A DNA stretch of 64,000 bases from Omphalotus guepiniiformis (taxonomy: Eukaryota; Basidiomycota; Agaricomycetes; Agaricales; Omphalotaceae), in NCBI GenBank assembly GCA_028554645.1, contig JAQOOI010000079.1, positions 1,736,001-1,800,000 of the forward strand, in the 5' to 3' direction. Positions 15,712 to 61,860 of the stretch are shown here, piece after piece (position 1 is the stretch's first letter; the number at the start of each line of letters is the position of its first letter). Position numbers and translations under genes: made by a program. The notes under the pieces are model-generated. The model ran no database searches. It saw only the letters and a program-made list of their open reading frames with translations, and had not been told where the DNA came from.

Positions 15712-16220
15712 GGAGTGGCGGCGACTCGGCTCGGAAGATGTTGATGTGTTCATTCTGTCTTGCGGGTATGCGATATTGCATTAATTTATAGAGTGTAGTA
15801 AGCCAGTTCGATCTGGGCAATCTGGATGTTATTTAAATCCTATTGAAGACCATTTATTCCATTCAATTGTACTGAAAGTGAAAGTGTATAAATTGTTATT
15901 CTCGGAGGCATAAACAAACCACAGTGTCGTGATCATTACGGACATTACTATCGTCTCAAGGTCTACGCGGGGCGGAGTTCATGATGTGTGGATAGGACTG
16001 CCTCTCTCAGCGTTACCTGCCCTGTCCCAGTCAACAAACTACATATACTGTCCATCATGTTTTCGTAACACCATATAAATTGAAGTTCGCTGTTAGCTCT
16101 ATCAAGCATTGCAATTGCGTTTGTTAAAATTCCGGCGAGATTCAGACATACTTAGTCTCCAGTACACACCAGGCCGAGTAAAACTAAACCTGTCAAACTA
16201 GTGCTTATGTTCTTCGTCCA
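15712..16220. other. Convergent intergenic, seryl-tRNA synthetase to MFS copy B
   Basis: About 0.5 kb between convergent genes. The right end (from about 16161) belongs to the inverted-repeat arm. Nothing else was recognised. Confidence 0.5.
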
Positions 16221-17749
16221 TTAATCAGGCTTCCTCGGTGCTCCAGGCACAAATGCCCACAACACAGTCATGAACCCCATCATAGCCACCAACCTAACCA
16301 CCCACACAAAACAAAACAATTTAGCTTGGCTCCATTAAGAACACCCCAACGAACCAAAAACTCACAGCGGCTGTAAACTCTTGATACCAAACTTCGACGC
16401 CAAAGCTCCCGTGATAAACGGAAACACAGCACTTCCTGCTTGTCCGAACCCAGCGATCCAACCTATAGATCCAGTGAGGAGCCATCGGGGTAAGACGCGA
16501 CTTGTGTGATTCATTGTGATTGGATACATTGGACCGAGGAGGATTCCGATGATGGAGATTGCTACGCCGTCGCCTATGAGGGATGGGACGAGCCAGATTA
16601 TTAGTTCGAGGCTGGGAGAGAGTGTGTTTGTGAGGTTAGAGAAGAGAGGGAGAGAGAGAGAGAGAGGAGGGTTTTAGTTACCCTATGGCTAGGAGAGCGT
16701 AGATGTAGAGAACTCGTCGTTCGCCGACCTGTAGGTTCGGTTGTTCGGTTGTTCGGTTATACGGTTACGATGAGGGTATGGGTTGATTCGGACGTACTTT
16801 CGAGTTGACCCAGAGCAGCGCGACCCGACCGACCATTAGTCCTACGGAGATGAATGATTTAGTATATGCCCAGTCATACGTCGGAATCAGTGCAAACCTC
16901 CAAAGAATCCCGCTGAGATATACCCAGAAGATGTACCACCCTTTCTAACTTGAATGATATACGTCACAATCCATCCTCCAAAAAAGATATTCATTGTTCA
17001 AGGGGCAAACACAAAAACATCTCGAAAAACTCACCTCCAATCGTTACTTCGACACCAACATAAACGAGGATGAACACAGCCAGCAAGTGCAGCGTCTTCT
17101 GTGAAAGAATCTGTCGGAATTGGCTATGTTCGCTGACACCTTTCTCTCCTGGTCCTTGTCCAATCTGTGCGAGACACTCTGTGTAACTGATAATGAGAAA
17201 AAGGCCGCTAGGACGGGTGCGCGCCTAATACAGCCTACCGTCTTGAGTCTTGAATCGAAAAACTAGGATGAGCCCTATCGTGTTTATAGCGGCCACACCA
17301 ACAGAAACGATATAGTAATATGACCAGTGTTCGAGCTGAGAGAACTGTGTAGCCACTAGCGGGGCACAAAGAGCACCGGCACCTGTATCGTATGAATTAC
17401 TACTGTACCCGGTATAGTACAGATATTTATCAACTCACCATAAGCCGCGTGAAGCAACCCCATCTTCGTCTCGGCATTATCTTTCAATGCTGCGACGAAA
17501 CCATTAGCTTGTGCGTCCTGTGATTTACCGTAACATCAAGAACACAAGTTGAGTTGGAAGCTCAGAGTTACATACTTGTAAAGCCATTCCTATCCCGTTG
17601 ATCGTAAACGACAAAACAAAAACGGGAAAAGGTAGTTGTGGTGCCTGTAGTATATAGGCAATTTGCTGACAGACCGACCCTAACGAAAGAGAGGTTGTTG
17701 AGGCTAATGAACGAGAGACAAGAAAACGGTCATTTACCGCAAACAATAA
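16161..17749 (-). repeat. Inverted repeat, arm B (MFS gene copy)
   Basis: This is the reverse complement of 1-1610 at high identity. The match covers the 3' two-thirds of the MFS gene and about 55 nt past its stop. The right-hand limit is unknown because arm A is cut at the window edge. Confidence 0.9.
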
Positions 17750-36780: not shown

Positions 36781-37953
36781 TTTTTTCTTTTTTTTTTTTT
36801 TTTTTTTTTTTGGAGTAGCCTTTGTATAGCCGTTGACAGTCGCTCTCGGCGCCTTCTCCGGCTGGCGGTATTGACGAGGGATTGAACCTCATCGGGCATA
36901 TGTTCATAGAATATAGGTGCATAAATTTAATAAATTTTTTTATGTTTGATATCTCCCCGAGGAAATGCGATTACGCACTGGGTGTGGGACTCGATGTAGA
37001 CACGCGACTTGCTTGCGTCGTGTTTTGTACAGCGCTGGCTTAGGGGGTCTCCTTACCTTCTAACTTACCTCTCACGTACCCCCGTCTGCCTCCGCTGGTC
37101 TGTCTCTATACCCACTAAAACCCCGGTGTTCGTTACCCAGTCATTCGGAAGATTAGCTTCGTTAGCCAGGACATTCTTCCAGGTCGCTTTGACCAAACCT
37201 TTACTAAGGGCTTTACGTTCGTATTTCTTATTCGTCATCCGGCGGTCCAGTGTTAGCCTGTCGTTCATCGTTGCCATCCATCGGTTTGTTATTTCACGGT
37301 CCGTTTTCGTTTTATTGTCTTGGTTGATCACCCGTTCACATCTTATTCGCCAGATGAGGTGTGCCGATTCGGATATGATTATGCGCCACAATCTTGCTGC
37401 GCCTATGTCTGTCCTTTTCGTAGCAGGGTTCGTGAAGGTAGCTAGGCCAGCTCCGATTATTCCTCCTATGTTTGGTCGTTCCCAGATCGCGGAGAATTTG
37501 TTCTGCCATAGATTTCCAGCGAGGTTCCAGATGAGGTCTTGCCCTGGAGATGAACATTGGGCTAATATGTGCGTCATGGATTCTAGATCATCATTGCAGT
37601 GGGTGCAGTACGCCCTCTTTTGCAGTTCCGGAGACAGGCTATCTCGGAGCCACAGGTTTCCTACCATGTATGCGTCATGGGCGGTCATCCATAAGAATTG
37701 TCTGCACTTCCTGGAGAGGTCTCTATTCCGTATGGCCTTCCATATCGCTTCATTTGTTGGCGAGAAGCCGAAGATTTCCTGGGCTTCTTCTCGGGTTCGT
37801 TGGAGGTTTTGTGCCGTACGTGCTCGTTGTTGTGGTTCACTCTGGGGCAGGTACGTTTTTATCGCCTGATATGCCAGTGACTGTGTCATTTTGGACAACT
37901 TTGCTCCGGAAAGGCTTAGGTTCGGATCAACAGAGAGGTCGAGTTCATCCTGC
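36781..37953 (-). mobile_element. 5'-truncated non-LTR retrotransposon (LINE) insertion
   Basis: The insertion is bounded by perfect 16-bp target-site duplications (36765-36780 and 37954-37969). The minus-strand 3' end carries a poly(A) tail, seen on the plus strand as a 31-nt T tract with one C at 36781-36811. About 250 nt of 3' UTR separate the tail from the stop codon of the element's open frame. Only the C-terminal end of the ORF2-type protein remains, so reverse transcription stopped early. The 1173-bp length, intact frame and perfect duplications point to a fairly recent event. Restoring the empty site joins CGCTTCCCATT to AAAACAGC. Confidence 0.92.
37065..37953 (-). pseudogene. C-terminal fragment of LINE ORF2 (post-RNase H zinc-binding region)
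   Basis: About 295 residues are open from the truncation point to the stop at 37065. The order of motifs fits the C-terminal tail of Agaricomycete LINE ORF2 proteins: NEAIWKAIRNRDLSRKCRQF, LWMTAHDAYMVGNLWL, the zinc-knuckle-like CTHCNDDLESMTHILAQC, LWRIIISESAHLIWRIRCER, RWMATMNDRLTLDRR and a terminal WVTNTGVLVGIETD. Reverse transcriptase and endonuclease are absent. An in-frame ATG just inside the duplicated site makes it look like a small gene, but it is a dead fragment. Confidence 0.88.
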
Positions 37954-37969
37954 AAATTCGCTTCCCATT
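37954..37969. repeat. Target-site duplication, right copy
   Basis: AAATTCGCTTCCCATT, the direct repeat of 36765-36780, at the truncated 5' side of the LINE. Confidence 0.9.
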
Positions 37970-39963
37970 AAAACAGCATGAGTCAAGAACATTGGCGGGA
38001 ACTTGCGAAAATCGTGCAGGGAACCTTCCTGGGTGCGCATCTACGTAGGCTTTAGCACGATTCATTGTCCGACCAGCCCAACCAAGGAGACGATGAGTCG
38101 TATTCATCTCGCTGTCGGCCTTGTATTCGTGTTGGCGACCGAAATGAACACAACTATTCCAGCCAGATTCCAGCAACCAGAATGCATCCCAGCCACCAGA
38201 CTCTATGAATGATGTAGATCAGTTCGCCCTAGAGGTTCAATCGCGACATATAGTTCTTCATCCCAGTTCGAATATCGATCTAGAGCTATTGTATCAATAT
38301 AGACTGAGGATGACAGAGAAATGAGACGAAGAAACTCGAACTCACATCTACGACCACCCACAGTCGGGGATGATCTATGTATCCTAGCATTGTCGCGAGC
38401 TTGATGACCCTACGCAATATCGATATGTATCACCGCGCCTCCTTCCAGATTGGCAATTCTGAATTCTGAATTCTAATGGACATTCAAACAAAGAGATCCG
38501 AGAGTGCGAATCAAGACTCTTCTAATCAAGCTCAAATTCCTTCTTCATTCGCATGCCGCTATTTCCTGACAGAGTGAAGAATGAATGATGCATGAAACAT
38601 TAGTGCGAGGGAGAGGGAGGAGTAGCATATGATGACTAATACCGTAATGGCTTCCACGTGCTCTACTGTATCAGCACTCAAGCGCTCAACGGGCGCTAGT
38701 AAGCCTACCTACAGAAGGCTACTACAGTCTACAGAAAATTTGTAAGTTCTGAAAACAATTTCCCGTTCTTTTTTACGAGTTAATAATACCCAATGACGGA
38801 AGTACATGTCAATCGACTTCCAGCTCCATGTATACGGGTTGACGAATTTCGAAAGGGAAAATGCATCGAGTGTTGAACGTGACGAAAGATGAGATCGACA
38901 TTGACCATAATTCTATTCTATTCTATTCTGAAGATTGAAAGATTGAGAGATTGAGAGATTGAATGCTCGTGCGTTGTACATATGTATGTAATGTAAAAGT
39001 AAAATAAAAACGTCTAACGAATATGCAAGGTGTCAAGTATGCTGCCACTGGCAAGTACGTGAAAAGGTTGGTACTACCCAACTAATTACTAACTAACTAA
39101 CAAGGAAGGAATTCGAAGGAAGGAAGGGTATAAACGGCAATCTGGACAGGAAATAAGTAGAAGGAAAACCAGGGAATCGGGGATCCTGATAGTACTATAA
39201 GTGCAAAAAAAATAAGGCATGACGAAAGACATCCAAGAAGGTCGAAAAATCCAATGTGCATAGTATAATCCAGCGTCACAATGAATCTGAAGAGGGAAGA
39301 GAAGAATGAAAACCAGAAAAAGTATGTATGTATGTATGTATGTATGTATGTAGCCAAAACACAGTTCTGCGTGGAGGATTTAATCCGGGTTGAAATCGAA
39401 ATCATGAAGTAAAAGAGTGGAAGGAAGGAAAGAACGAAAGAAAGGAATGAAAGAAAAACCCCGAAACTCCACCACGCGAACACTGGGCCAATCCTTTTCC
39501 CAGCAACTCACATATCAACCTCGTCAAAGTGCACCAGGGTCCCCCGCGTCATCACACACACACATATACAAGTAAGGGGTGTGTGTACACTTCAACCCCA
39601 AGTCCAATCCAATCCAATCCAATCCATCCTTTTCACCTCCTACGCGTCAAACGCAGACTCCAAACCAGAACCCCCCTCATACTGCCTTTTTCAAAGGCAA
39701 ACTGAAACACAACACGACGAAAAAGATCATACAACACATCACACCCTCCTCCTCCTCCCTCCGCTCCCTCCTACTTTCATTTTGAATTCTGATACACATT
39801 TCACGGCTCACAGCGTTCTCCTGGGTCTCCTGGATCCCCGTGGATGATCGGTGTTGACGAGAGACATAGTAGAGCTTCAGGGGGAACAAGGGAGGGAGAG
39901 AGGGAGAGAGGGAGAGAGGAAGAGGAAGAGAAATCAACGAACGAACGGAGATCAAACACACGA
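37970..39963. other. Gene-poor region rich in simple repeats
   Basis: About 2 kb with no recognisable gene. It holds (TTCTA)n near 38911-38927, a GATTGAGA-like run near 38937-38962, (TATG)n at 39323-39352, (AATCC)n near 39602-39626 and a (GAGAGG)-type run near 39890-39920. The right end is the 3' flank of the glycosyltransferase gene. Confidence 0.6.
39323..39352. repeat. (TATG)n microsatellite
   Basis: Seven and a half uninterrupted TATG units. Confidence 0.95.
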
Positions 39964-45055: not shown

Positions 45056-45632
45056 TGCGTGGTGGTCCGTGCGCTGGTGTTCCGGCGGTAAAGGTGAGTA
45101 ATTACATCGCAGAATGAAATAGGAAGGTTATTCCCACGAACCCTATAACGATCGTTCCTGTTACTTTCCTGCTTCGTCTCCGCCGCGGCGGCGTGGAGCT
45201 GACCAAAAATTCCAGAAGCAATTGACTCTGAGGTCTATCTCAGCCTGTGCTGGGATTAAGACTCCATCTCGTATGAAGACAGTGGTCTGCCAGTGGTCTG
45301 CCCGGTCAGCGTCGCTCGGTTCGGACCTGGTTACCGCGCTAACTGGCGTCTCGGCAAGGTTTCTTCAGGGTTTCCTTGAGAGATCTCCATTCCAATGATG
45401 TGCATTATCCATCTTGCAAGGGTGCAGTAGTATTGTACTAACAATGATCATACACGTCAACGAATCTGACGCGGCAGTTCGCGAAACAAACTTGAAGACC
45501 TTTCATGTAATAAAAACGCGCCGCGGACATTCAAACTCAAACTCAACTGGGGACTTAAAATAATACTTAAGTTACTTACTGACTCGCTGACTCGAACCAT
45601 TCAGTGGCGTAACCTATAAACCTCAAGAAAAC
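45056..45632. other. Divergent intergenic, SDH5 / SR protein
   Basis: About 580 nt between divergent genes. A short CAGTGGTCTGCC tandem pair lies near 45284-45303. No gene was recognised. Confidence 0.45.
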
Positions 45633-47230
45633 ATGGACCTTAGCTCTCTGCAGCCGTCTGTAAGCTCCTTCTCTCTGTCTCTTGTGGCTCGTCCCAAGAG
45701 CCGCGGTACTTATTACATTTATCACTAGCCCAACAAAGTATACCTTGGGAGACTACCTTTATGTTCCCGAGAGGAAATATACGAGCTGTGTAAAAGTTTT
45801 GGTGGAATATACCACTTACGTGTCAAGTACGCCGTCTTCCGTTCTGCTGTATCTGTTCAAGTTGAAGACGGTTACTCACTCTGCGATGTATTTAATATGA
45901 ATATAGGGATGGGTACGCATTCGCGGTACGTGCTACTACCGACCGGCGTAGTCCCTGCCGCTATCGCGACTTACTAGACTGAATTTTGAGTAGGAATTCG
46001 CCAACCAGGTATCGGCGGATCTTTGCGTCGAGAAATTAAACGGAGCGGAATTTAAAGGAGAAAAAATCATTGTTGAGATCTCTCATGGGGGTGGTAGGTT
46101 TACGAGGTCCCCGACTGGACTTTGCTGGCGATGTGGACGCCCTGGACACTGGTCAAGGTATGATTCGTGTAAATCGATGTGATTATTTTTTGAGCTCATT
46201 CACGCTGTCGTATAGAGACTGCCCTTACCCGTGAGTTCATATGGTTTGGTTTACGAATACTCTGTTTGACGTGTTTAAGTTCGCATTATCGATGCTCGAG
46301 GTGTGGTAAGCCTGGACACCAGCCTGCGTTAGTATTCAAAAATCGTTCTTGATACCAGTACCATATCTAACATATTTTATTCAATACAGGGAATGTCCAT
46401 CCCATTACTCACCGTACGTCGTCCTACCCTTCGATAACTTCTACCCACCACTCAGCGGTTTGTCTTTGTCTAAAGCTCACCGCCCCGGAGCCGAGGCCAA
46501 TCCGTAGCTTCACGATACGAGAATCCACGATACGAGAATCCAAATGATTGGCCACCACTGACTCCTCCACATCATAGATCCTACTCTCCGAGAAGGCACC
46601 TCTACGGTGGTTCAGAATCAGGGTACACACGATATGATTACTTCCGCGATGTTCGTCACCATCGATACGAATCGCCTCCCCCCGCGAGCCCCCGGGATCG
46701 AGCTGGCCTCATAGCGAGCCGCGAGCGTTCCGCTGAACGTGCCCAGACTCGGAGTCGCTATGTCGAGGAAGTGTCTGATCCTAGGGTAGCAACACATGGA
46801 AGGAATGACTCGGAGTACAAGCGGGAGCTGCGAGCTCAGACTCCGCCGTCTAATGAACGCTACGAGGCTTTCCGGTAATAGACGTTGTTGATTCCGCCGG
46901 AGGACAGATTACTTACTCCTGTCTATTTTCAATAGGGATCATCATGACTATCGCGGCCGATACATGACCTCTCCTGCACGAGATACTGAAAGACCGCTAC
47001 GCGATGAACACCGAGACTCGAGTCTTACACGTTCTTTGGCTCGTGGTATCGCTCAACAGACAACCTCTCCGCCTACTCGATATACTCGCGGCGCTAACGA
47101 ATACAGTCCTCTTCCTCGTCGTCGCGGTCGATCTCTGTCACGCTCTGCAAGTCCCGCTCCAGCTCGTCGTCGTCGGACTTCATACTACGCAGAGGCGCCT
47201 CTGAGTCCGAGTCGTCGGCCTGTGGAATGA
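45633..47230 (+). CDS. SR-type splicing factor with RRM and two CCHC zinc knuckles
   Basis: A nuclear RNA-binding protein of the SRSF7/RSZ kind, expected to bind exonic enhancers during splicing. The start at 45633 gives MDLSSLQPS. Exon 2 carries the RRM: KVYLGRLPLCSREEIYELCK (RNP2 region), then a small exon GYAFA (RNP1) and QVSADLCVEKLNGAEFKGEK. Two knuckles follow, CWRCGRPGHWSRDC and CSRCGKPGHQPAEC. The C-terminal RS-like region gives SYSPRRHLYGGSESGYTRYD, a second block with RERSAERAQTRSRY, and finally RRRGRSLSRSASPAPARRRR to the stop at 47230. At least seven exons. A 16-nt unit (CACGATACGAGAATCC) is tandem in the intron near 46513-46543. A broken copy lies at 51586-52330. Confidence 0.85.
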
Positions 47231-47565
47231 CTTGCGTTCCTATGTGCAGCTTGCTTTTCTATCGCCTTTGCTTTGCTTGTTGATGATGCTGAATCTGTTT
47301 GACTGTACATAAGAGGTACCGTGCATATATTTAGCCTGTCTCGAGGGCCAGGGATACCCGCACGTTGCTGCATGGCGATTGAAGAGGGGAGTGGGTCCTT
47401 TGAACACCATCCCCTATCATAGGCTGTTCGCCATGTTTGCCTCGTTCATATAGTCGCCTGCCTACCTAGTCTCCCGCTGGACTCACTTCTGGGTACCAAA
47501 CCTGCTGCTTACGCTTTTGGATCTCCATGAATATCCTGTGTGTATTAGGTTTTCAATATCAGTGC

Positions 47566-47745
47566 ACATTCTGTGAACTACTATCTGAGCCTGTCAGTAC
47601 GTACATATGCTCTGCGTGTTCTTTACATTGATCTCTTGATTTCTTGATATCCGAACATTCTGTGAACAACTATCTGAATGCCTGTCAGTACATACATATG
47701 CTCTGCGCGTTCTTTACATTGATCTCTTGATCAATTGATATCCGA
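47566..47745. repeat. Two tandem 89-bp units downstream of the SR gene
   Basis: Units start with ACATTCTGTGAAC at 47566 and 47655, run through TACATATGCTCTGCG and TTCTTTACATTGATCTCTTG, and differ at only a few positions. Confidence 0.9.
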
Positions 47746-48020
47746 ATTCTTTTGTATGCCAACTTGCTGACTTGCTGACATGGTGTACAGTATCCAGTGA
47801 TTCAATACCAATGAACCGTTGTGAACTGAACCACGTCCAACGTTCGAAATTGGTTAGTGTTTAAATAACGGAACAATTGTACAATGTACGACACAAGTTA
47901 CTAGAAGATTCTCATCCTCTCATTCTGACTGCCCTGAATACGCTTGTAGTTCAAAGTCCAAGATCATTGCCGCGGCTCAAACCTGTTTGCCCTCTCCCTT
48001 TCGTTAAGTATTGGTCCGAT

Positions 48021-49572
48021 TTATTTCGTCCTAAATTGGCAAGTTGGAGTCCAGAGTCTGAATGCAGTGACGCTGCCATTAGGCATCATACGAGGATCGT
48101 CTGTCGCGGAAATCGTGTTATCAACAAGAGGGATCCCGGGAGTAAGGAAATCTCCGCTTCTCGCGATGTCGGAGGTACGGCGAAACGTCATTTCCTGGCG
48201 GTGCGTTGTCTCAATGTATCCATTATCACTTTCCCGATCTTGGCCATCGAAGCTAATGCCCAAAGCGATTCGTAGTAGGATCAGGTTTGGAGCGATGCCC
48301 TAAAGACACAGTTACTTGAATGTGATCTTCAATGATTTGACGGGGTACTTACCACAATCTGAAGAAGAACCGGCGCCATATTCGCTTTAGAGCCTGTTGC
48401 TTGTACAGCAAAACATACGATGAGAGCCACTGGATGGACCAGTCCCGACTCCAGGCTGAAAGATGGTGAGTTCGAAGTCAACACTGGACAAAAGTGACCA
48501 CCCACAGCATCGAAACGATTGCATTGTATTTCTTGTCCGATTTATTGCCACCCAAGATTAGGGTCGCAGTTTGGCTGATCCACCAAATCCGACCCGCTAT
48601 TTGTAGATAGTATTGAGTGAGGCAGCACACGACATCGACAACATTGCCTCACCGATCAACAGTGTCAACAGTACGTTCTCAAATATGTTGACCAAATATG
48701 TAAATTCAACCTTATCTCCTGTTCACAACTCATATTCGTAAGAGGTAGCGAAGAAATGATGTCATCCTGCTTTGGTGAGACCTATAGCAATAAACACAAC
48801 ACCTGCTATACACTGATTAGGTGCTACAACGGCAGAAGAATATACACACCGCAGTTACCAATGGAAATCAAGGCAGGCAACGCGACAATTCCTTTCCTTG
48901 AGCCCCAGACTATGTAGCAGCGATAGATCTGCAAGATATATTTCGGTCAAAGTTCATAATAGAGTGACAATTCGACCGACGAGGACGATGTCAGTGACGA
49001 AGCTACGAAACTCTTTGTTAGCAAGAGGCGTAGAAAAAGTTCAGCAACATACTTCGCCGTAGTATAGAGCGCCCCGATGGCACATCTATCGTTCACACGT
49101 CAGAGCAAGTCCGTCCGAAGTGAAATTTCGATACACGCACCTGTAATTCACCAGTAGCGTTTCAGATCCAGCCAGACCCAGATTACTCGCGAAATTGGCA
49201 AGGATGAAAAGTTTTGAATTCATTGATGACCTCCAACACAGACAATACTAGCCCCGCAGTTGCAAAGACGAGCACAGTCAGGTTTGCAAGCGGATAAAGA
49301 CGGATCCTCCCATTGTTTTTTGCCTGGTGCTGAGAAGAAATAGGCCACAGTGAGCACTAAATTAACGCCTAGATAACTTTTTCAGTAGGGAGTTGTCGAT
49401 ACCATTAGCGAGCTACGTACTGTAAAAAAGGAACTCGAACTGGCACACGAGTCAGTATGTTAGTTTACAGACAAAGATTTCACAAGCTAAGAGCAAGCAG
49501 GGGTGGATGCATATCCTTCAGGACTTCATCCAAGATCCGAGTTTCAAGAGCTACAGTAGAGCTGTTACTCAT
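48021..49572 (-). pseudogene. Seven-helix orphan membrane protein, copy 1 (frameshifted)
   Basis: This is clearly homologous to copy 3 (55076-56730), with the same introns. The start ATG at 49572 (MSNSSTVALETRILDEVLKD) and the C-terminal exon (GISFDGQDRESDNGYIETTH... ending CQFRTK) are kept. In the exon that copy 3 reads as GVNLVLTVAYFLLSTRQK, this copy lacks one base within TTCTTACTCAGC, gains two before GGGAGG, and has one extra A within GAATTCAAAACTTTTC. The frame therefore runs into a stop before the second half. Either it is a pseudogene or the sequence has errors. Copies 2 and 3 are open at these sites. Confidence 0.75.
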
Positions 49573-50229
49573 TCTCGTGGGGTGTTCGATCAATATAGAA
49601 TTGAGTGTGTATCGATGGGTGAGGCCAAGAGCGCAATACAACTTGCGATAGCTTGAATTTATGGAGTCAGGTCGGGCATACTCGGCTTACTGTACCGTGG
49701 TGTTCCAGATACGTGTACACCCCACGATCCTAATGGATGCTCGAGCAGGGGCTTCTGATATCACAAAAATACAAGAAAGTGGTTTCGACTATCGTTTGTA
49801 TCAGCTTTGCGAATCTGCGCATAGGTTAGAGACTCCGTGCTGATACCGCGAGAAATATACGGATAACTCACCTATTCAACTACGAGCGGACACAAAAGCT
49901 CTCGTAAACAGCAACCCGCCACCAGCCTGCCAGACCTCGTGAGTAGGCATTGTAGCCGAGTGTCGCCGGTTCCACTAGAATGCAGTCTAGTACTAATTGA
50001 CTATGTGGTGGCTTGGGGGTTGTTGACCGCGACTTCCAGCACAGCATTATGCATGATAATCAGGAAGAATCAAGTAGACTTCGAGTATCTTGGAACCCTT
50101 GAACTCCTCGATGCCCAAGGCTGCGTTGCTGCTGTAAGATGGTGATATTCACGGGGCTTATTTAGACGCCCAGCGGGCCGTGTCATTCCTCACGACGCGC
50201 GTATTGAAAATAGCAGGATGGAGGCTGGT
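49573..50229. other. Duplicated divergent promoter, 7TM copy 1 / het-C pseudogene
   Basis: Homologous to 56731-57602 but more diverged toward the het-C side. The TCACGTG site of the intact locus was not found here. Confidence 0.6.
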
Positions 50230-51585
50230 TCTATGTACACAGCTGTCACCCTGCTCGTGCCACCGAAAAAATGTTGGACAGCATCCGAGAGTACATCGTT
50301 GAAGCGGAGAAGGAAGGTCGCTCTGGTCAGGAAATATACCTTCGTGAGTGATTAGGCAATTGACTTCGATTCGGCAGTTATGTGGAATAGGTTTGCTTAT
50401 GTGGAAGGAAAAGGCTTTCGGCACGGCGATGTAGTGGGTGTTCACCTCGTATAGAGCTGGTGCTATATTCAGGCAGTTGACATTGGTATGTCGTGGTTTC
50501 CTCTGGTGCTTTAAAATCTGAACTCATTTTTGTTTCTTGTTTCCTGCAGAGAAGATCCATGGAATAGGCCCAGTATTTGAGAGAATCATGAGTTCTATCT
50601 CAGGTGAGTTCGTGGATTTCGGTTTGTGCTAGTTTAACCTAATTGTTCATCGGGATTAGCATTCGTTTCACCACTGTAGAGGTAAGCACTGCGCACTTCG
50701 CACATTCTCAGATGCTCATGGACGTCGTGTTGTAGTTTTTTGTCAAACCTTTGTTGCAAACCGCCACCAATGGTCTTCAAACCGTGTCTGGAGAAGCTAT
50801 CGACAATCTACGACCAATGTGAAGTTTTCATCAACTCGAGAGCTGTCAGTCTATAACTCCACTGGCGCTGTGGGCGTGTTAGAAGACATCACTTCGGGCC
50901 TGTACGTGCTCAGTACTCGATAGACCCAAATTTGCTGAATCAATGGTATCACAGCTTCCACCCCGAGTTCCACAATTCGTCTTCAAAAATCTAGTGAGAA
51001 ATGATGCAGTATCTGCAGACCTGGGTTCAGCAGCTTGGATTCAAAAAACACGACATGCTACGTCGTCTCACGAAGGAAGCCGTTCGCAATCATGATAATA
51101 GTAATCGCCTCGCAGGAGATGGCGGTGTTCCGGAGACCCAGGCTCGTATGCGTATAACCCAGGCGTCCGAGAACAGCACAAATTGCAAGGATATGTGAAC
51201 CAAAAATCTGGCGTCTCGCAAGCGCAGTCCTTGCTGGGCAGTTTTGGCGGCGGGAGTGGTAGGCAAAGAGATATACCTAGTCCAGGAGATTCTCCATATC
51301 CTGGAGCAACTCATGGTGAACCCCAGCATTACCATTGTCCATCACCTCCGTGAAGCAGACTACGGCTCCGGACATTCCTCATCTCCTGCACCGTCTGCAC
51401 CTTCTTTCCCTGGCGCACCCTCATGTTATGTTCCATCTATCGGAGCTCCTCGGCCAGCTCTGCGCCTTCGATTCCCGGGGTACCTGGACGTTACGCACCA
51501 CCCACTGGAGCACCACCAGGAGGCTCTGCGCCCTCATTCACTGGCGCACCGACGATGTCGTTTAAATACCGTGCAGGATATGTTA
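50230..51585 (+). pseudogene. het-C pseudogene, core deleted
   Basis: A DNA-level copy of the het-C gene at 57603-61235; introns are kept, so it is not a retrocopy. Recognisable parts are the end of exon 1 plus intron 1 (CCTTCGTGAGTGATTAG), exon 2 (GGAAGGAAAAGGCTTTCGGC), then a jump to CTTGTTTCCTGCAGAGAAGA and the 3' exons through ATGCAGTATCTGCAGACCTG and the Pro/Gly-rich tail. About 1.7 kb equal to 57830-59560, which encodes most of the Het-C domain, is missing, as is about 280 bp near 59910-60190. The start codon context is lost. The copy stops abruptly near 51585, where SR-gene sequence begins. Confidence 0.85.
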
Positions 51586-52330
51586 CCAACCACTCAGCGG
51601 TTTGTCTTAAGCTCACCGCCCCCCAAGCCGAGGCCAATCCGTAGCTTCACGATACGAGAATTCAAACGATTGGTTCACATCATCGATCCTACTCGCCGAA
51701 AAGGCGCCTCTACGGTGGTTCCGAATCAGGGTACGCACGATATGATTACTTCTGCGATGTTTGTTGCCATCAATACGAACTGCCTCCCGCCGCGAGCCCC
51801 TGGGATCGAACCGACCTCACACCGAGCCGCGCGCGTGGGTTGTTGAGCACCATCCCCCATCATAGGCTGGTCAATATTGCTTCGTTCACATTTTCGATGG
51901 TCGCCTGTCTGCTCTCGATGATTCTGGTGCCCAGCTTCATTTTTTACACCTCTGCTTTGCTTGTTGACGATGTCGAATCTGTCTGTCTCGAGGGCCAGAT
52001 CGCCTGTGCATCACATTGTAATGCCGAAGAGGAGAGTGGGTCGTTTGAACACCATCGCCTATTCTAGACGGGTCATCATTGCCTCGCTCATGTAGTAGCC
52101 TGCCTACAGACCTGCTGCCGCTACGCATTGCTTACGCTGCTCTATGGATGTTTGCAATCTACATGTCTGTGTAACATTCATTGAATAACGTTCATTAAAT
52201 TACTCTCTGAAATCTTGTTAGTGCGCGTGTTCTACAATTGACCTCTTGATTTTCTTGGCATAAAGTAAACTCCCTGGCTGGTTTCTAATTGTACGCTGAC
52301 TCACAGCGGTTCTTGCATAGTGTCTAGCAA
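51586..52330 (+). pseudogene. SR splicing-factor pseudogene, 3' part with internal deletion
   Basis: It begins inside an intron of the SR gene (CCACTCAGCGGTTTGTCTTA, matching about 46450). It continues through the next exon (GGCGCCTCTACGGTGGTTCC), then jumps near 51831-51842 to the SR 3' flank (CACCATCCCCCATCATAGG, matching about 47407), losing about 0.65 kb that includes the last exons. The 3'-flank block occurs again around 52030-52100, suggesting a further internal duplication. The tandem 16-nt unit of the parent intron is single here. Confidence 0.82.
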
Positions 52331-52469
52331 TGACACACCCAATGCCTGAGACTGGATGATGTTCACCATTGGTTCATGTCTAAATAACGGAACTATTGTG
52401 CAACACAAGCTCTGTATAATATACTGGTTTCCCTCTTCCAACAACTAGCTTATATTTCAAACCCCAAAT

Positions 52470-54198
52470 TCATTGCCGAGGCTCAAGCCTGTTTCCCCTC
52501 TTCCGTTCATTAAGCATTGGTGTCAGTATCGGTCCGATTGATTTCGTCCGAAAGTGGCTTGGAGTCCAGAACCTGAATGCAGTGATGCTGCCATTAGGCA
52601 TCACACATCTATCTTGTAAGGTAGAACCAGAAGCACTATAGTCGAGATTGCTCGCAGGAGTCGTGTTATCAACGAGAGAGGACAAGGAATCTCTGCTTCT
52701 CGCACTGTCGGGGGTACGAAACACTATTTCCTGTCGGTGCGTTGTGTCAATGTATCCGCTATCGCTTTTTGTCACTTGGCCATCGAAGCTAATGCCCAGA
52801 GCGGTTCGTAATAGGATCAGGTTTGGAGCAATGCCCTTGAAAAATGTGTCATAAGCTTGTTCATTTGGTTGAAAAATCTCTTATTGAAGGGGTACTTACC
52901 ACAATCTGAAGAAGAAGTGAATCCATATCTGCTAAGTCAATCTTGCCGGTGACTTCTAGGACCAAGCATATGATAAGAGCCACAGGATAAATCAGTCCCG
53001 ACTCGAGGCTTCAGTATTTGATCAATACATGCAATGTGAGTGGGTGACATGGGCCACTTACACCATTGCAATGATTGTATTGTACCTTGAATTGTTGCAT
53101 TGATTGCCGTCAAAAATCCTGGATGTTGTTCGGCTGATCCACCATATTCTACCAGCTTTTTGTGCAGCGCAAAATTTCAGATTCAGTAGAACAACAGCTT
53201 AGAACAGTTCTGACTTACCAATCATGAACGTCAATATCAAGTTCTCACTGAAGTTGATAGCAAGAACCGCATAACCACAATACACGTTACTGAGATGACC
53301 TTCCAATAAATACGCGTTCATCACACTATTGTAAAGAGAATTTGCCACGTTCTGGTAGTAGTGAGATAACGCTCCCTGCATGAGGCCTACAAAGGTAAAG
53401 GAGATAGCTGTTTTTGATCCATTAGATGTACGAAAGGTCAATAGAAGATGTGCCCGTCCATACCACCGTTAGCAATGGAAATGAAGGCAGGCAGGATGAC
53501 AATTCTCTTTCTTGATCCCCAAACTATGTAGCATCGGTAGATCTACCAGAATGGTTTGGTCAAATTTGTCAACAAGCTCAATGACAATTTGACTGACAAG
53601 GATTAGATCAGCAATGAAGCTAAAGAAAACTTTTGTTAGCAAGTGAGGTAGGGGAATGACAATTCAGTGGCATACTTTGTTATTGTATAAAGAGTTAAGA
53701 TAACTGTTCTCTTAGCGCCGCATTTTACAACAAGTCCATCTGAAGTCATCATTCTACGCACCTGTAATTCACTAGGAGCGTTATGCACCTAATCCACAGC
53801 ACGAAACCTTCCGAGCCCGTCACTGGAGCTGCAAGGACGAGAGATTTGATATTGTTGATGACTTGGACTACAGATATTGCTAACCCCACACTTGCGAAAA
53901 GAAATACGGTCAGGTTTGCAAGCAGATAAACACGGGTCCTCCTATCCTTTTGCTTGGTACTAAGTAAGAGATGGACCATGGTTAGCACTAGGTTGATGCC
54001 TGGATGAAGAGACAATTTCTATTCAGTAGCGGAAGTGTTGACGATTCTAGCTTTCACCTTACCGTAGAAGAGGAACACAAACTGGCACAAGAGTCAGTTA
54101 GATTCATGGAGATTAAAGGTACGTACAGCAAGGGCAAGCAGGGGTGAACGCACTGATGACTCGAATAGTTCAAGTTCATCCACCAAGCTATCACCCAT
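52470..54198 (-). CDS. Seven-helix orphan membrane protein, copy 2
   Basis: Start at 54198: MGDSLVDELELFESSVRSPL, then LLALA before the first intron. Transmembrane pieces in order include GINLVLTMVHLLLSTKQK, YLLANLTVFLFASVGLAISV, LVNYR, a segment with SFTFVGLMQGALSHYYQ, GRIWWISRTTSRIF and LESGLIYPVALIICLVLEVT, followed by ILLRTALGISFDGQ. The Ser/Thr-rich cytosolic tail ends RLEPRQ (stop 52470-52472). This is a family widespread in Agaricomycetes with no known function. It is more diverged than copies 1 and 3 are from each other, and open throughout. Confidence 0.72.
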
Positions 54199-55075
54199 TT
54201 GAGTGGTCAGTCGTTGTAGGAGTTAGCGGGTGCTGTTGGGTGAGCCGAAGAGTGTCGCATTACGAGTTGCAATTTGTCGGTATATATGCGCAGTCCTGCT
54301 ACACACATTAAAGTACTTGGGGCGGTCATATGCGGCTTCTTCTCAGCTTCTGATATCAAGCAAAGAGAATGTTGATGAGGGTGATGATTACTAGGGGATC
54401 TGAACAGCTCTGAACACAGCACTGGTATTAGAGATGGTAACCACATTAATCAAGGTGGACTTCACACACCTGTCATAGAGCCATCGCATAAATGCAGTTC
54501 TAGCCTTGTTTCCCTTCATGTATGTACTGCATTCATGTACTCATAGGCATCCTTCTTCTCTCGATGATGATATCTTTCACTTGGCAACTTGGCTGTACAA
54601 TAGATGAATGCCCGGGTACTTGAATCGAGCTCGACGACAGACGACGACGGGAGTCACGAGAGGCATATTATGATCACTGATTTGGTCAGCAACTCCAAAC
54701 CGCTGACAGCCATACAACTTCAAGTAAGTCCCGGTTTTTTCGATATAGAATCATCAACGTACTGAGCGATTCGGTGAACATACATCATGATACATGGTGG
54801 TCCGAGTCGAAGCCGATCACGCCTACTGCTAGGAGCAACGTGGGAAAAAGACGCCTTGCAATACAAAGGAAGGCAATTGGTCGTTCTAAACCTGACAGAA
54901 ACGCTGAACGTTTCCCCGAATTCCATGCATGAGCTTCAAAGATGCAGACAATAACACTCAGTAGCTAAGACCTGAGTTGCTAAACCATCAGCCCTTGTCG
55001 GCAGAAAAAGAAGATAAACTGTATTATTATAAGATGTACAGTAGCATACGGTATGTAAGGAGCATTTCTCAGAGC
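54199..55075. other. Intergenic, 7TM copy 2 to copy 3
   Basis: About 880 nt holding the promoter of copy 2 and the 3' flank of copy 3. A 68-residue minus-strand open frame at 54720-54926 has no recognised family. No het-C remnant was recognised here. Confidence 0.45.
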
Positions 55076-56730
55076 TTACTGGTTCCGCAGTGGCTCAAGC
55101 CTAACCTCCCTCTCCCCGTCATCAAGCATCGGTCTCGACTCAGTCCTGAATTGGTTTTGATTGAACGGACTAAACTCCTCGTTGATGGTGCTATCAGATA
55201 TCACACGACTGTGCCCTGTACTTCCGTTGTATCTATAGATACCTTGGAAAGTACCCCCGGGGGCATTATAATCGGAGTTACTCGTATGGTACTCTTGACT
55301 TTTCGCGGCGCTGTGAGTGCGGCGGTGTATTGTATCCTCTACACGCGTCGACTCGATATCTTTATCGTCGTGATCATGACGTTGACCATCGAAGCTCACT
55401 CCTAGAGCGGCCCGAAGTAGAATAATGTTCGGGGCAATGCCCTAAGAACGTCCAATACTTGGAATGAATAAAGTGGTGGGAGACTCACCACAATCTGAAG
55501 AAGAACCGGGGCCATAGTCGCTACAGAGCCTGTTGCTTGTACAACCAAACATATGATGAGCGCCACAGGATAGATCAGTCCTGACTCCAGGCTGAATGAT
55601 GGTAAGTTGAAGTCAACGCCGAAAAACATGGCACCCACAACATCGCAACAATTGCATTGTATCTCTTCTCGGACTTATTGCCACCAAATATTTTGGTTGC
55701 AGTTCGGCTGATCCACCAAATCCTGCCCGCTATTTGTAGATAGCATTTAGCAGATTGAAAAAGATACACAGCATCAACAGCATGGCCTCACCAATCAAGA
55801 GTGTCAACAATACATTTTCGAATATATTGATACCCAAAAACGCATAATCAAGCTTATCTCCTACGTACACTTCATCGTCGTGGGAGGTAGCAAAGAGATG
55901 ATTCGACCCTGCCTTGATGAGGCCTACAGCAGTGAACGAGATGCCTGATATTCATTCACTAGGTGTGCGACATCAGCAGAAGAACTGCATATACGTACCA
56001 CAGTTAACAAGGGAAATGAAGGCAGGCAGCGCAACGATTCTCTTCCTTGAGCCCCAAACTATGTAGCAGCGATATATCTGCGAGAAATATTTCGGTCAAA
56101 GTTCAAAGGTCATAAATGAGTGAGATTCCAACTGACGAGGACGAGGTCAGCGACGAAGCTACAAAACTTCGTATTAGCAAGCGCGGGGGAATGAGGTTCA
56201 GCGACATACTTCGCCGTGGTATAGAGTGTCCCAATGGCGGATCTATCAGTGCCACACGTTAGAGCAGGTCGTCCCGAGTTCGGCTTTCGACACACGCACC
56301 TGTAATTCACCAGTAGCGTTTCAGACCCGGTAAGACCAAGATTACTCGCGAATCCGGCAAGGATGAGAAGTTTGAATTCATTGATGACCTCCGCCACGGA
56401 TAATACCAGCCCCGCAGTTGCAAAAACGAACACAGTCAGGTTCGCAAGCGGATAAAGGCGGATCCTCCCGTCTTTTTGCCTGGTGCTGAGTAAGAAGTAG
56501 GCTACAGTAAGCACTAAGTTGACGCCTAGATAATTATTCAAAAGAGTTGTCAATACCGTTTTAGCGAGCTACGTACCGTAGAAAAGGAACTCGAACTGCC
56601 ACACGAGTCAGTATGTTAGTTTACAGGCGAACATCTCACATACGATAAGAGCGAGCAAGGGTGGATGCATATCCTTCACAACTTCATCCAAGACCTGAGC
56701 TTCGAGAGCTACAGTAGAGCTGTTATTCAT
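55076..56730 (-). CDS. Seven-helix orphan membrane protein, copy 3
   Basis: Start at 56730: MNNSSTVALEAQVLDEVVKD then MHPPLLALIFEFLFYG across two introns. Hydrophobic segments follow: VNLVLTVAYFLL, LANLTVFVFATAGLVLSVAE, SFVADLVLV, CYIVWGSRKRIVALPAFISL, FLGINIFENVLLTLLIAGRI, LESGLIYPVALIICLVVQAT and APVLLQIVGIAPNIILLR, about seven helices. The tail is polar and rich in D/H/S, ending PMLDDGEREVRLEPLRNQ with the stop at 55076-55078. About seven exons, all open. Divergent from het-C across 872 nt. The function is unknown; GPCR-like topology is only an inference from the helix count. Confidence 0.78.
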
Positions 56731-57602
56731 TCTCGTGGGGTGTTCAATCAAAGCAGGATTGAGCGGGTATCGATGGGTGAAGCCAGAAGCGCATTACAAC
56801 TTGCGATAGCTTGAATTTATGGAGTCAGGGTGGGCGTACCCAGCCTTACTGTAATTAGGCGTTCCGAAAATATACAAAACCAAAAAATCCTGATGGCCGC
56901 TCGCACTCGGGCAGTTTTGATTGTAGTTTCGATTATTATATGTATCAGCTGTGCGAAGCTACGCACAGGTGGATGTACATAGACAGCATTTAGATAATCG
57001 GAGTGTCAATGATCAGCTTTACCGCTAGAGGTATACCGATAGCTCACCTGTTCAGCTACCAGCGGACACGAAGGTTTGCTTCTCTGAATCGTGAACAACT
57101 CGTGAGTATGCGTTGGAGACCACCAGACAGGCCGAGTGCCGCCGGTTCCGCTAGACTCGTACATTCCAAGATCTACAATTGGATACTGTATGTATTATGT
57201 GGTGATTTGGGGGTTGTTGGCCGTGTAGCTTGCTCCACCAATGATTGAGCTTCAGCGCATCAGCTAGCAAGATAATCAGCAAGAAGAATGCAGGTTTCGA
57301 GGACCTTGGAGCTGTCGAACCGCCTTGAAACCCTGAGCGCTGTGTCAGAGATTGGTAGTGGAGTGGCGTATATAGAAATTTTAATAGAAACATGTAGCAC
57401 GTGACAGTGGTAGCATAGCCATACGGAAATTACCATATTTGGGATCTCGGCCAAAGCATTTCGACGCCAAGCCCGGGGCCGCAAGTCATTCACTGTCATT
57501 CATCGACTACGCGCGTGGCGAACAGCCTGTTTGTAGACAGAGCCAGGCCCCAGGATTTGACATTTATCATATCTTGAACCTATACTTTTATCACTCGCAC
57601 CC
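56731..57602. promoter_or_regulatory. Divergent promoter, 7TM copy 3 / het-C, with CACGTGAC
   Basis: 872 nt between two start codons. GCACGTGAC places a CACGTG core at 57398-57403, about 200 nt upstream of the het-C start; on the minus strand this reads GTCACGTG, as in two other divergent promoters of the window. Confidence 0.45.
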
Positions 57603-60600
57603 ATGTCTCGCACCACAAATATCTTGTTTCTTCTTGTATTCATTTTCGCCTTCTGTCTGGCAGGAAACGGTGTATATGCCTTTGGGGCAGGGAATATTCC
57701 TTCGTGAGTGATTAGACAAGATTTCGATTCGGAGCTCACAGTTATGCGGATTAGATTCGCTTATCTGGAAGGAAAAGCCTTTCGGCACGGCGACATAGTG
57801 AGTGTTGACCTTATCCGATCTCTGCATGGATCTGTTGCTCATCAGGCATTTGTGGTCAACAGGAAGATGCCCTTTCAGAATTAATGAAGAAAGGTGGTGG
57901 AGGTTTTGCTTTAGCAAGTGTATTGGGTAAAGGAGGTTCTAAATTTGGCGGACTTGATATCAAGAGAGTGTATTTTGGGTGCGTGATAGCCTATAGACAG
58001 TCTGCAAGTGCAAGGTTTCACTTCTATGTTTCTCTCAGGAACTGGCTTCGAGATTATAGTCAAGTAAGCTTTTGCTTTTCAGAAAAGCAGAGCCGTCTCG
58101 TGACAAGCTCTAATTTTTCAGGCTGTGGATATCGCGGGCTTGAAGAAGCTTCCTTTGCAGGTATGCTGCGCATATACTCCCTGCGTTTTGCGTGTATTAA
58201 ATGATTTCATAGACTATTCTCAACTTGTGTATGGTCCTCGGCTTTCTGGTGAATCAATTTGCGTGCTGTCTGAGAGCGACGAGCTTACAGTCTCCTCTTT
58301 AGGCTCACGGTTATGCAACAAATGAATTTGAGGTCACTATTGAACGATTGGGCGTGTATCTCCCTGTAGGTCGGCTGCATTTTATCACTAATTTGATCCT
58401 AATTGGTCTTAGACTGAACACATCGACAACCCGAAGGGCTATGGAGCTGGCGAAGACGCTAGGACCTATGATTCTCGGTTACGAGGGCCTGTAGATGTGA
58501 GCTCACTTTTCCTCATTCCAGTTCTCGCACTCATGTTTCCTCAGCCAAGGGAGCTTGAGGTCGACACTCGCACCGGAATGAAAAACTACATTGCGAATGG
58601 TACAGTAGGCCTCGCTGTCGGGAGAACCGTTCTGACATGCATCAACCACAGAGGCTGGTGGCTGGGATACATCCAAAGCATTGGTTCGACGGACTCTGGA
58701 ACGGTGTATTCATCTCGGCCGCCAACACCGTGCACAAGGCCGTAAACAAGATGAATACGAGGCATACCGACTCCTTGGACAAGCTGTACGGTTGGATATC
58801 ATTGTAACTAATCACCTCATACTAATTGGGTTCACGTAGATGCACACACTGGAAGATTATCCTGCACATTCCAACTTTTGCGAGCTTGCGTTGGCATCTT
58901 TAGGCTATAACGACGTATTTGTCCATGTTGGTGACCAAGTGAGGATTCAGGCTCCTAATGGAAAGCGAGTTGCGCCCATTGTCACTGGTCTGTTTTTCTG
59001 TCCTCTCGTTGCAGTATGAGCTGACAGCCAACGTGCTTGCAGGGACCTTTGGATCGAGCGACTTCATTCACTCCTTATTAGGAGGTGAGTATTGCGCTAC
59101 TGCTGTATCGATGTGTTGAGTGACTGTTGCTTCCACAGAGGCTACCGATCATCTCGTACGTGCCGTTGAGGCCGATTTCGTCACTACCTCCTCTAATTCA
59201 TGTTTTCTCAACAGAGTCAGGCTTCTGTCACTGATCTCAACAAGGAATTCGCTAAGGCACGTTCCGCCGAACGCTCCGGACCAGGTGGTTCCAATAGTCC
59301 ATCAAACGTCTTGCGTGACTTGTTCTTTTCCCTACCAGGCGGTTCTGGTGGAGAGATGTCTCGTGAGATGGAGAGCATCGAGAGAATTCGAGCTGGCCCA
59401 CAGCAAGGCGGAAAGAGACCTGAGGATATGAGCCCGCAGGAACTTCACGCCGTGTTGTGGCAAGTGTTGAGCTTCAGGGATTCGGTTGCGAAAAAGATTG
59501 AGAAGACCATTGGTACGTTGTGGATTCAGGTACAGGTGTTTCAAGATCTAGACTCAATTCTCCTGCAGAGAAGATTCCCGGACTGGGCCCATTAATTGAG
59601 AAGATCATGGATTCTATTTCAGGTGAGTTCGTGGATCTGATTTGTGCTAATTTGACCTAAACTAATTTGACCTAAATGTTCGTCGGGATTAGTTTTTGTT
59701 TTCACCACCCTGGAGGTAAGCACTCAACAACCTGTACATTTTTCTGATGCTCATGGACTTCAACTGTAGCCGTTTGTCAAGCCTTTGTTGCAGACCACCA
59801 CCAACGGTCTTCAAACCGTGTCAGGAGAAGTTATCGACAACCACGACCAGTATGAAGTTTTCAATGACCCAAGAGCTGTTAGTCTTTAACTACACTGGCG
59901 CTGTGGCGTGTTATTAACAGATTCATTAGTCAGATCCCACTCATTCGTTCTTGAGTAAAGATCATTTCGTATGTCATTGCTGCTGTCTTCATGCTGGTTG
60001 ACTTGCTCAATTCTGGTTTCAATAGAATCTCATTCTGAATGAACCTGCTGGCCACCTGGCGAAGATCATTGTCGTATGTGTTCTACTCTATCCTTGAAGT
60101 TTGTTGGGTTAACGTAACTCTAAGACACATGCGGTTACATTGGTCGTGAAAGCATGGGACGACACTTCCATGAATGTGCATCAAATCACAGAAGATATCA
60201 CTTCGTGCCTGTACGTGCTCAATACTTGATAGACCTCATTCACTCAATCAACGGTATCACAGCTTCCACCCCGATTTCCACAACTCATCCTCAAAAATCC
60301 AGCGAGAAATGATGCAGTATATGCAGACCTGGGTTCAGCAACTTGGATCCAAACAACGCGACACGCTACGTCGTCTCACTAAGGAAGCCGTTCGCAATCA
60401 TGACAATATTCGCCTCGCAGGAGATGGCGGCGTTCCAGAAACCCAGGGCTCGTATGCGTATAACCAGGGCGTCCAAGCACAGCACAACTTGCAAGGATAT
60501 GTGAGTCAAATCCCTGGCGTATCGCAAGCGCAGTCCTTGCTAGGCAGTTTTGGTGGTGGCGGGAGCGGTGGGCGAAGAGATATCCCTGGTTCAGGAGATT

Positions 60601-61235
60601 CTCCATATCCTGGAGCAACTCATGGTGCACCTCAGCATTACCATGGACCACCACCTCCAACCACAGGTGAAGCTGCGGGATACTACGGCTCTGGACATTC
60701 CTCATCTCCTGCACCGTCTGCACCTTCTTTCCCTGGCGCACCCTCCCATTATGCACCACCTTCCGGAGCTCCTCCGGTCAGCTCTGCGCCTTCAGGGCCC
60801 GGGGCACATGGACATTACGGACCACCCACTGGAGCTCCACCAGGAGGCTCTGCACCCTCGTTCCCCGGCGCACCGACGATGCCGTCTGAATACCGTGCAG
60901 GATATGCCCCTTCGTACTCTTCCCCACAGCCATCATTCCCCGGTGCGGATGTACCTCCGAATTTCCCTGACACAGGAGCGTCTGCTTATCCACAGCCACA
61001 CCACCACCATCAGCACCATTCTCCGCTACCTCCCAGCGGGTTTGCTCCGCCGCCGCTTGGAGGCGGGCCAGGTTTCCCTGAGTCTAACCCGTATGGGCCA
61101 CCTGGCGGTGGTCCTTCGTTCCCTGGTGCAGATCCTTATGAACAACAAGCACCTCCGTTTCCTGGTGCCCCACCTCGTTTCCCTGATCATCAGCAAGGTG
61201 GATATAATTCGTACGGTGGTAGTTCGGGGTGGTAA
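57603..61235 (+). CDS. het-C: HET-C heterokaryon-incompatibility-type protein
   Basis: A secreted or surface protein of the Het-C family; in Neurospora, het-c alleles act in non-self recognition after hyphal fusion. The start at 57603 gives MSRTTNILFLLVFIFAFCLA, a signal peptide ending near VYAFGAGNIPS. The Het-C core is complete: FRHGDIEDALSELMKK, IKRVYFGNWLRDYSQAVDIA, HGYATNEFEVTIERLGVYLP, EHIDNPKGYGAGEDARTYD, ELEVDTRTGMKNYIAN, AYRLLGQ with MHTLEDYPAHSNFCELAL, and VTGTFGSSDFIHSLLGEATD. Helical segments such as IPGLGPLIEKIMDSISV follow. The last about 280 residues are a Pro/Gly/Ser-rich repeat tail (PSFPGAP, GAPPG units) ending YNSYGGSSGW. Fifteen or more exons, no disruption found. The variable tail and the partial copy at 50230-51585 make the locus a candidate for diversification. 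Confidence 0.9.
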
Positions 61236-61860
61236 AAATGCCTCGGTTTTATTGTTTCCTTTTCAAAAAAACCTGTTCAATTGCGTGTACTTCTACCCCA
61301 ACAAGGCGAAAGGCATCAGTTATGGGGAAAAATGTCTTTATGTATCGTTCGTGTAGAATCTAAGGCTGTGTAGCAAGGATGTGTAGCTTCATTGAATAGG
61401 TTGGATCTCACGCCATTTGATCTGCGTACCAATTTGGATGAGACGAAATCCAAATCGGGATTCTAATTTCTGAGGATGTCTGAATATATCCGACGTTCAA
61501 CTGTCCTTCTGTCGTCGGACGGCCTAAAGTCTTACATCGCAGCGAGAGAATGAGGACATTGACAGGAAACGAGAATAGTTTTAATTGCTTTAAGATCATC
61601 AGCCTACTTGTCATTTTTAGCAAATAAAGTATGTGAATACTGAAGTGCAAAGCAAGAACTGGGAAACCAGAGCCTTCTTGGCTCTGACCGTTCCCCGCAA
61701 AAGGTAGGTCATGTCGATGTCAGATATTCGCTCTATATTGCATCATATGTCAGACAAGCCAGTCGGTTTGTGATATATAACATCGCTCTTTCAGCGCACA
61801 GTGAAACATCTTCCCATTAGCAAACAGTCAATACATCTTACCTTTTTGCATTTGAAAAGA
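61236..61860. other. Intergenic, het-C 3' flank
   Basis: About 625 nt, AT-rich, including the promoter of the small gene at 61861. Nothing else was recognised. Confidence 0.45.

Follow-up and report, generated by a model that had tools for sequence, protein, structure and literature searches.

A probable tandem block duplication with reciprocal loss at a het-C locus of the mushroom Omphalotus guepiniiformis

In Neurospora, het-c is a recognition gene (PMC11138114), and in Moniliophthora roreri het-c has been counted among the up-regulated self/non-self recognition proteins (PMC4550789). A comparative paper makes the case that het-C genes of family PF07217 may not be bona fide het genes outside Neurospora (PMC1325252). 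Two further papers carry het-c in their reference lists alone (PMC8970355 and PMC8229728), and a third treats HET proteins in general and includes a Podospora reference (PMC12411881). Here we describe a cluster of SR, seven-transmembrane (7TM) and het-C genes in a 64,000-nucleotide stretch of the Omphalotus guepiniiformis genome, hereafter the window (C78:1736001-1800000, from an assembly of 42.5 Mb in 80 contigs). The intact het-C of the locus, hetC2, matches the HET-C/TINC profile of the N. crassa het-c type, and a paralogue elsewhere in the genome fits the two-branch family of PMC1325252. The locus differs from the N. crassa type in that it has no pin-c-like HET-domain neighbour, and in that hetC1 and a het-C piece at 38 kb are relics. 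With Podospora HET-C, a different protein of 208 residues with a GLTP fold (PMC10197012), hetC2 shares only the name. The 7TM proteins are like the DUF6534 candidate G protein-coupled receptors (GPCRs) of Agaricomycotina (PMC12842992) in their seven predicted helices and their expansion in a mushroom lineage; however, at E up to 1 neither 7TM3 nor its homologues P0001, P0002 and P0005 match any Pfam family, hence not DUF6534, and 7TM3 likewise gives no match to STE3 (PF02076). SR1 shares one RRM, CCHC knuckles (in two stretches) and an RS-rich tail with RRM and zinc-knuckle SR proteins, and nothing notable sets it apart.

Self-comparison and repeat finding gave the order SR1, 7TM1, hetC1, SR2, 7TM2, 7TM3 and hetC2 (Table 1), with gene models built by splice-aware scripts and splice sites checked by hand. 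A first-pass annotation had read the cluster as an SR, 7TM and het-C order repeated with losses, and all seven copies indeed lie at the place, in the order and on the strands that it gave; its placing of het-C at the centre of the cluster did not hold, as het-C is the outermost gene of the repeated unit. The view that these are DNA-level tandem duplications with losses was also borne out. The homology blocks are collinear and far above shuffled sequence, the top-scoring alignment of one half of the cluster with the other reaching 1282 bits against 32.6 bits for the best of 50 shuffles of non-overlapping dinucleotides. For 7TM1 and 7TM3, the homology runs through the introns and upstream of the gene. 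When 6-kb pieces with starts at 0-42 kb were compared, the single other strong pair was that of the pieces at 0 and 12 kb, which share an inverted repeat (1-1610 with 16161-17749), and the next match scored 38.3 bits.

Table 1. Features of the cluster and homology blocks within it (window positions, unless a contig is given)
Feature	Position	Strand	Description
SR1	45633..47230	+	Open model, 9 exons, 362 aa; RRM, two CCHC zinc knuckles, RS-rich tail; copy 1
7TM1	47967..49572	-	Broken; 3 stops and 4 frameshifts in splice-aware alignment
7TM1 chimera breakpoint	48350..48370		537 informative sites
hetC1	50325..51582	+	Relic; keeps short first part; carries stops and frameshifts; fused to SR2 at its 3' end
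SR2	51584..52107	+	SR fragment matching 46442-46728 and 47336-47465; without the RRM part; joined to hetC1
7TM2 (7TMa type)	52470..54198	-	Open model, 10 exons, 397 aa
7TM3 (7TMb type)	55076..56730	-	Open model, 10 exons, 392 aa
Divergent intergenic stretch	56731..57602		872 bp between start codons of 7TM3 and hetC2
hetC2	57603..61235	+	Open model, 21 exons, 843 aa; intact het-C of the locus
Third het-C piece	38069-38428	-	Decayed; 64% DNA identity with 58418-58791
7TM4	C78:1810603-1812306	+	Outside the window, 13 kb past hetC2; further 7TM2-type copy
Homology block	46442-46728 vs 51584-51836		78%
Homology block	47336-47465 vs 51983-52107		74%
Homology block	47842-49649 vs 52361-54273		64%
Homology block	48142-50166 vs 55284-57376		73%
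Homology block	50325-50447 vs 57685-57811		82%
Homology block	50481-50881 vs 59508-59913		75%
Homology block	50881-51582 vs 60190-60906		86%
Homology block	52776-54273 vs 55382-56807		64%

Overall, we consider it very probable that a block duplication in tandem, followed by reciprocal decay, explains the locus. An ancestral block SR(+)-7TMa(-)-7TMb(-)-hetC(+) would have been duplicated whole in this mushroom lineage. In copy 1, the SR gene would have been kept open, 7TMa and 7TMb would have been fused into 7TM1 by a deletion or an unequal crossover, and het-C would have lost its core and become joined to the next SR gene. In copy 2, the SR gene would have been truncated, while 7TMa (7TM2), 7TMb (7TM3) and het-C (hetC2) stayed open. 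A 7TMa-type gene may additionally have given rise to the inverted copy 7TM4 downstream. Each gene would be left with about one working copy.

The structure of 7TM1 suggests which unit was duplicated. This gene is a chimera of a 7TM3-like body and a 7TM2-like last exon: in a four-way alignment read in 100-column steps, identity to 7TM3 ranges over 0.73-0.91 in the body, with values of 0.52-0.76 for the upstream stretch, and the last exon is 0.72-0.88 identical to 7TM2 compared with 0.49-0.63 to 7TM3. Informative sites are 7TM3-like at 302 of 409 positions before 48370 and at 15 of 128 after 48350, a switch with a chi-square of 155.6, when the permutation maximum was 19.3 and none of 2000 permutations came as high. 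Fusion of two tandem 7TM genes on the same strand would yield such a mosaic, which points to SR-7TMa-7TMb-hetC as the duplicated unit. Several single-gene duplications combined with gene conversion, instead of one block duplication and a later fusion, would be another route to the same picture, as conversion also makes mosaics and 7TM4 is a single gene copied here with its flanks. However, 7TM1 has one strong breakpoint, its 7TM2-like similarity runs past the gene into the SR-side flank, and order and strand are preserved among the SR, 7TM and het-C copies; we therefore regard this route as improbable.

The copy 7TM4 is free of stops and open except for one frameshift near the C terminus, and in the alignment to 7TM2 its last exon also shows a short gap, taken as an intron. 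It is 78% identical to the 7TM2 region across 2.4 kb, and the synonymous (dS) and nonsynonymous (dN) divergences between 7TM2 and 7TM4, 0.21 and 0.14 over 350 codons, suggest weak constraint. In the tree, 7TM1 to 7TM4 form one clade (100/100), with the sequences from Lentinula, Collybiopsis and Rhodocollybia outside it.

hetC2 scores 733 bits against PF07217 (cut-off 21), with residues 11-569 covering profile positions 2-558 of 561, and is thus a full-length member; the only other family at E up to 1 is VWA7_N, below its cut-off. The predicted metal-site motifs of the Het-C domain, HxD, HxxxDxxxH and Nxx[DE] (PMC3482391), are present on inspection as HGD, HTLEDYPAH and NFCE, and their residues are invariant or nearly so in 34 homologues. 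Where the alignment is long, hetC2 is 63-81% identical to many Agaricomycete Het-C proteins among the best 120 of 2730 matches. Most likely, hetC2 functions as a conserved protein whose core is of the metal-dependent, phospholipase C/S1-P1-like type that the literature describes for the Het-C domain. Compared by sequence with solved structures, het-C and 7TM each returned one weak match at chance level.

The other het-C sequences of the window have decayed. hetC1 lacks counterparts of hetC2 positions 57812-59507 and 59914-60189, and the HxxxDxxxH part falls within a deleted stretch. Phylogenetic analysis of the shared het-C part places hetC1 and hetC2 as sisters (100/99), and branch lengths of 0.27 for hetC1 and 0.016 for hetC2 indicate that hetC2 stayed constrained and hetC1 decayed. 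Just upstream of hetC1, positions 50270-50329 show a 60-bp match of 88% identity to G000:C71:461860-461919. The third piece, at 38069-38428, reached a splice-aware score of 95.6, compared with at most 50.5 in 15 shuffles. A 300-codon open frame (37065-37967, minus strand) directly abuts it; we take this frame to resemble the end of a non-long-terminal-repeat reverse transcriptase. A second het-C in the genome (C22:968494-971246) is unlinked and diverged, with 44% identity.

It had been proposed that copy-number change at this locus could alter compatibility. As a single het-C is intact here, the working copy number is not raised, and the proposal finds no support. Nine HET-domain matches occur in the genome, on C60, C67, C74, C75, C76 and C78, and the sole match on C78, the nearest, lies ~1 Mb from the locus; a linked pin-c-like partner was therefore rejected. 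For comparison, the 2005 survey reported no HET-domain matches in its two basidiomycetes (PMC1325252).

The predicted structure of P0002, a homologue from outside the window, is a seven-helix GPCR-like bundle (mean predicted local distance difference test score 72.7, predicted template-modelling score 0.66). Its top matches in structure comparison are GPCRs, the best being the class D receptor Ste2 (7ad3_A), a likeness in fold only. The most likely role for the 7TM proteins is that of orphan, GPCR-like receptors. Contigs C6, C8, C19, C39, C55 and C61 carry STE3 matches above the cut-off, and C78 has one below it, ~1.7 Mb away from the locus; a mating-type link was rejected because all above-cut-off matches are on other contigs.

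Two of these matches, G000:C6:125752-126732 and G000:C19:1631530-1632510, have identical scores and frames and may be redundant haplotype sequence. Some redundancy may accordingly exist in the assembly, and two dikaryon haplotypes joined head to tail could in principle mimic a tandem duplication. However, the copies are just 64-86% identical, several are broken in differing ways and one is chimeric, and no near-identical second copy turned up when 45600-52200 and 57600-61240 were searched against the whole genome at the DNA level. We therefore consider an assembly artefact extremely unlikely.

The first-pass annotation had further suggested that consistent linkage would mark the 7TM protein and HET-C as a functional pair, a surface receptor beside a recognition effector. 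In its fuller form, the two would act in non-self recognition, possibly from a common divergent promoter, and copy changes would alter compatibility. In favour of such a pair, 7TM3 and hetC2 are divergent and 872 bp apart, copy 1 has both members broken and copy 2 both open, the predicted 7TM fold resembles GPCRs with Ste2 best, and het-c has the recognition role in Neurospora (PMC11138114) and the listing in M. roreri (PMC4550789) given above. The linkage itself was not consistent within the genome. In tblastn searches at E up to 1, the 30 kb surrounding the het-C on C22 contained no 7TM match. Among the best candidates scored, het-C matches occurred only on C22 and C78, leaving the 7TM-match contigs C14, C65, C20 and C76 without one, although the 7TM matches on C65, C20 and C76 are weak. 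The nearly open 7TM4 has no het-C match in the 20 kb beyond the window.

Nor did linkage appear across species in an indirect synteny test, in which the sizes of the contigs bearing the 7TM homologue and het-C were compared per species, the same assembly being assumed from names. The 7TM list held 37 matches from 26 named species, of which 19 were also among the best 120 of 2730 het-C matches; for both proteins, the closest homologues listed belong to Collybiopsis, Lentinula and Rhodocollybia. Two species were excluded before counting: Moniliophthora roreri, whose assemblies differ by name, and Lentinula aciculospora, whose assemblies may differ. An equal-sized contig was found in none of the 17 comparable species (Collybiopsis luxurians, Rhodocollybia butyracea, Paramarasmius palmivorus, Marasmius tenuissimus and 13 Mycena species). 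The Mycena 7TM homologues, with just 30-43% identity across 41-81% of the query, are possibly not orthologous, and for P0002-P0004 (two Lentinula species and Collybiopsis confluens), among the closest 7TM homologues, no same-species het-C was among the best 120 of 2730. Given these results and the distance of the nearest HET-domain match, we regard a functional recognition pair as very unlikely. We give equally little credit to a bolder reading, in which an unclassified mushroom family of Ste2-like seven-helix receptors would be placed divergently next to HET-C in this lineage under a common promoter. Surface receptor and phospholipase-like HET-C would then work as a single module for recognition or stress, specific to the lineage, with both members retained or both lost after duplication.

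Several points weigh against tandem block duplication with reciprocal decay. The duplicated block is seen here only in its decayed state, the gene models are predictions from sequence, and the 7TM1 entry in the tree is itself chimeric, so that its placement is blurred. Gene conversion could account for part of the similarity, as could a series of smaller duplications. Moreover, 7TM1 and hetC1 are both broken and 7TM3 and hetC2 both open, as a functional pair would also predict; this joint breakage and retention amounts to a single event and could be due to chance.

The SR copies complete the repeated order. SR1, predicted to be the intact copy of the locus, matches PF00076 (40.4 bits) and PF00098 (40.5 bits) and has an RS-rich tail on inspection, and it therefore qualifies as an SR protein; a homologue search across species gave no match at E 1e-8. 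Just 3' of SR1 lies a 67-bp direct repeat of 93% identity (47589-47746). Elsewhere in the window, positions 1-1610 and 16161-17749 form an inverted repeat of 1.6 kb with 87% identity, possibly a transposable element.

Taken as a whole, the cluster represents local duplication of an ordinary kind, followed by reciprocal loss. The apparent change in het-C copy number reflects decay after the block duplication and should not be counted as an expansion of recognition genes. 7TM1 provides a clean example of a pseudogene formed by fusion of tandem 7TM genes, and the locus points to a 7TM family of the Agaricales that has no Pfam match and a predicted GPCR-like fold.

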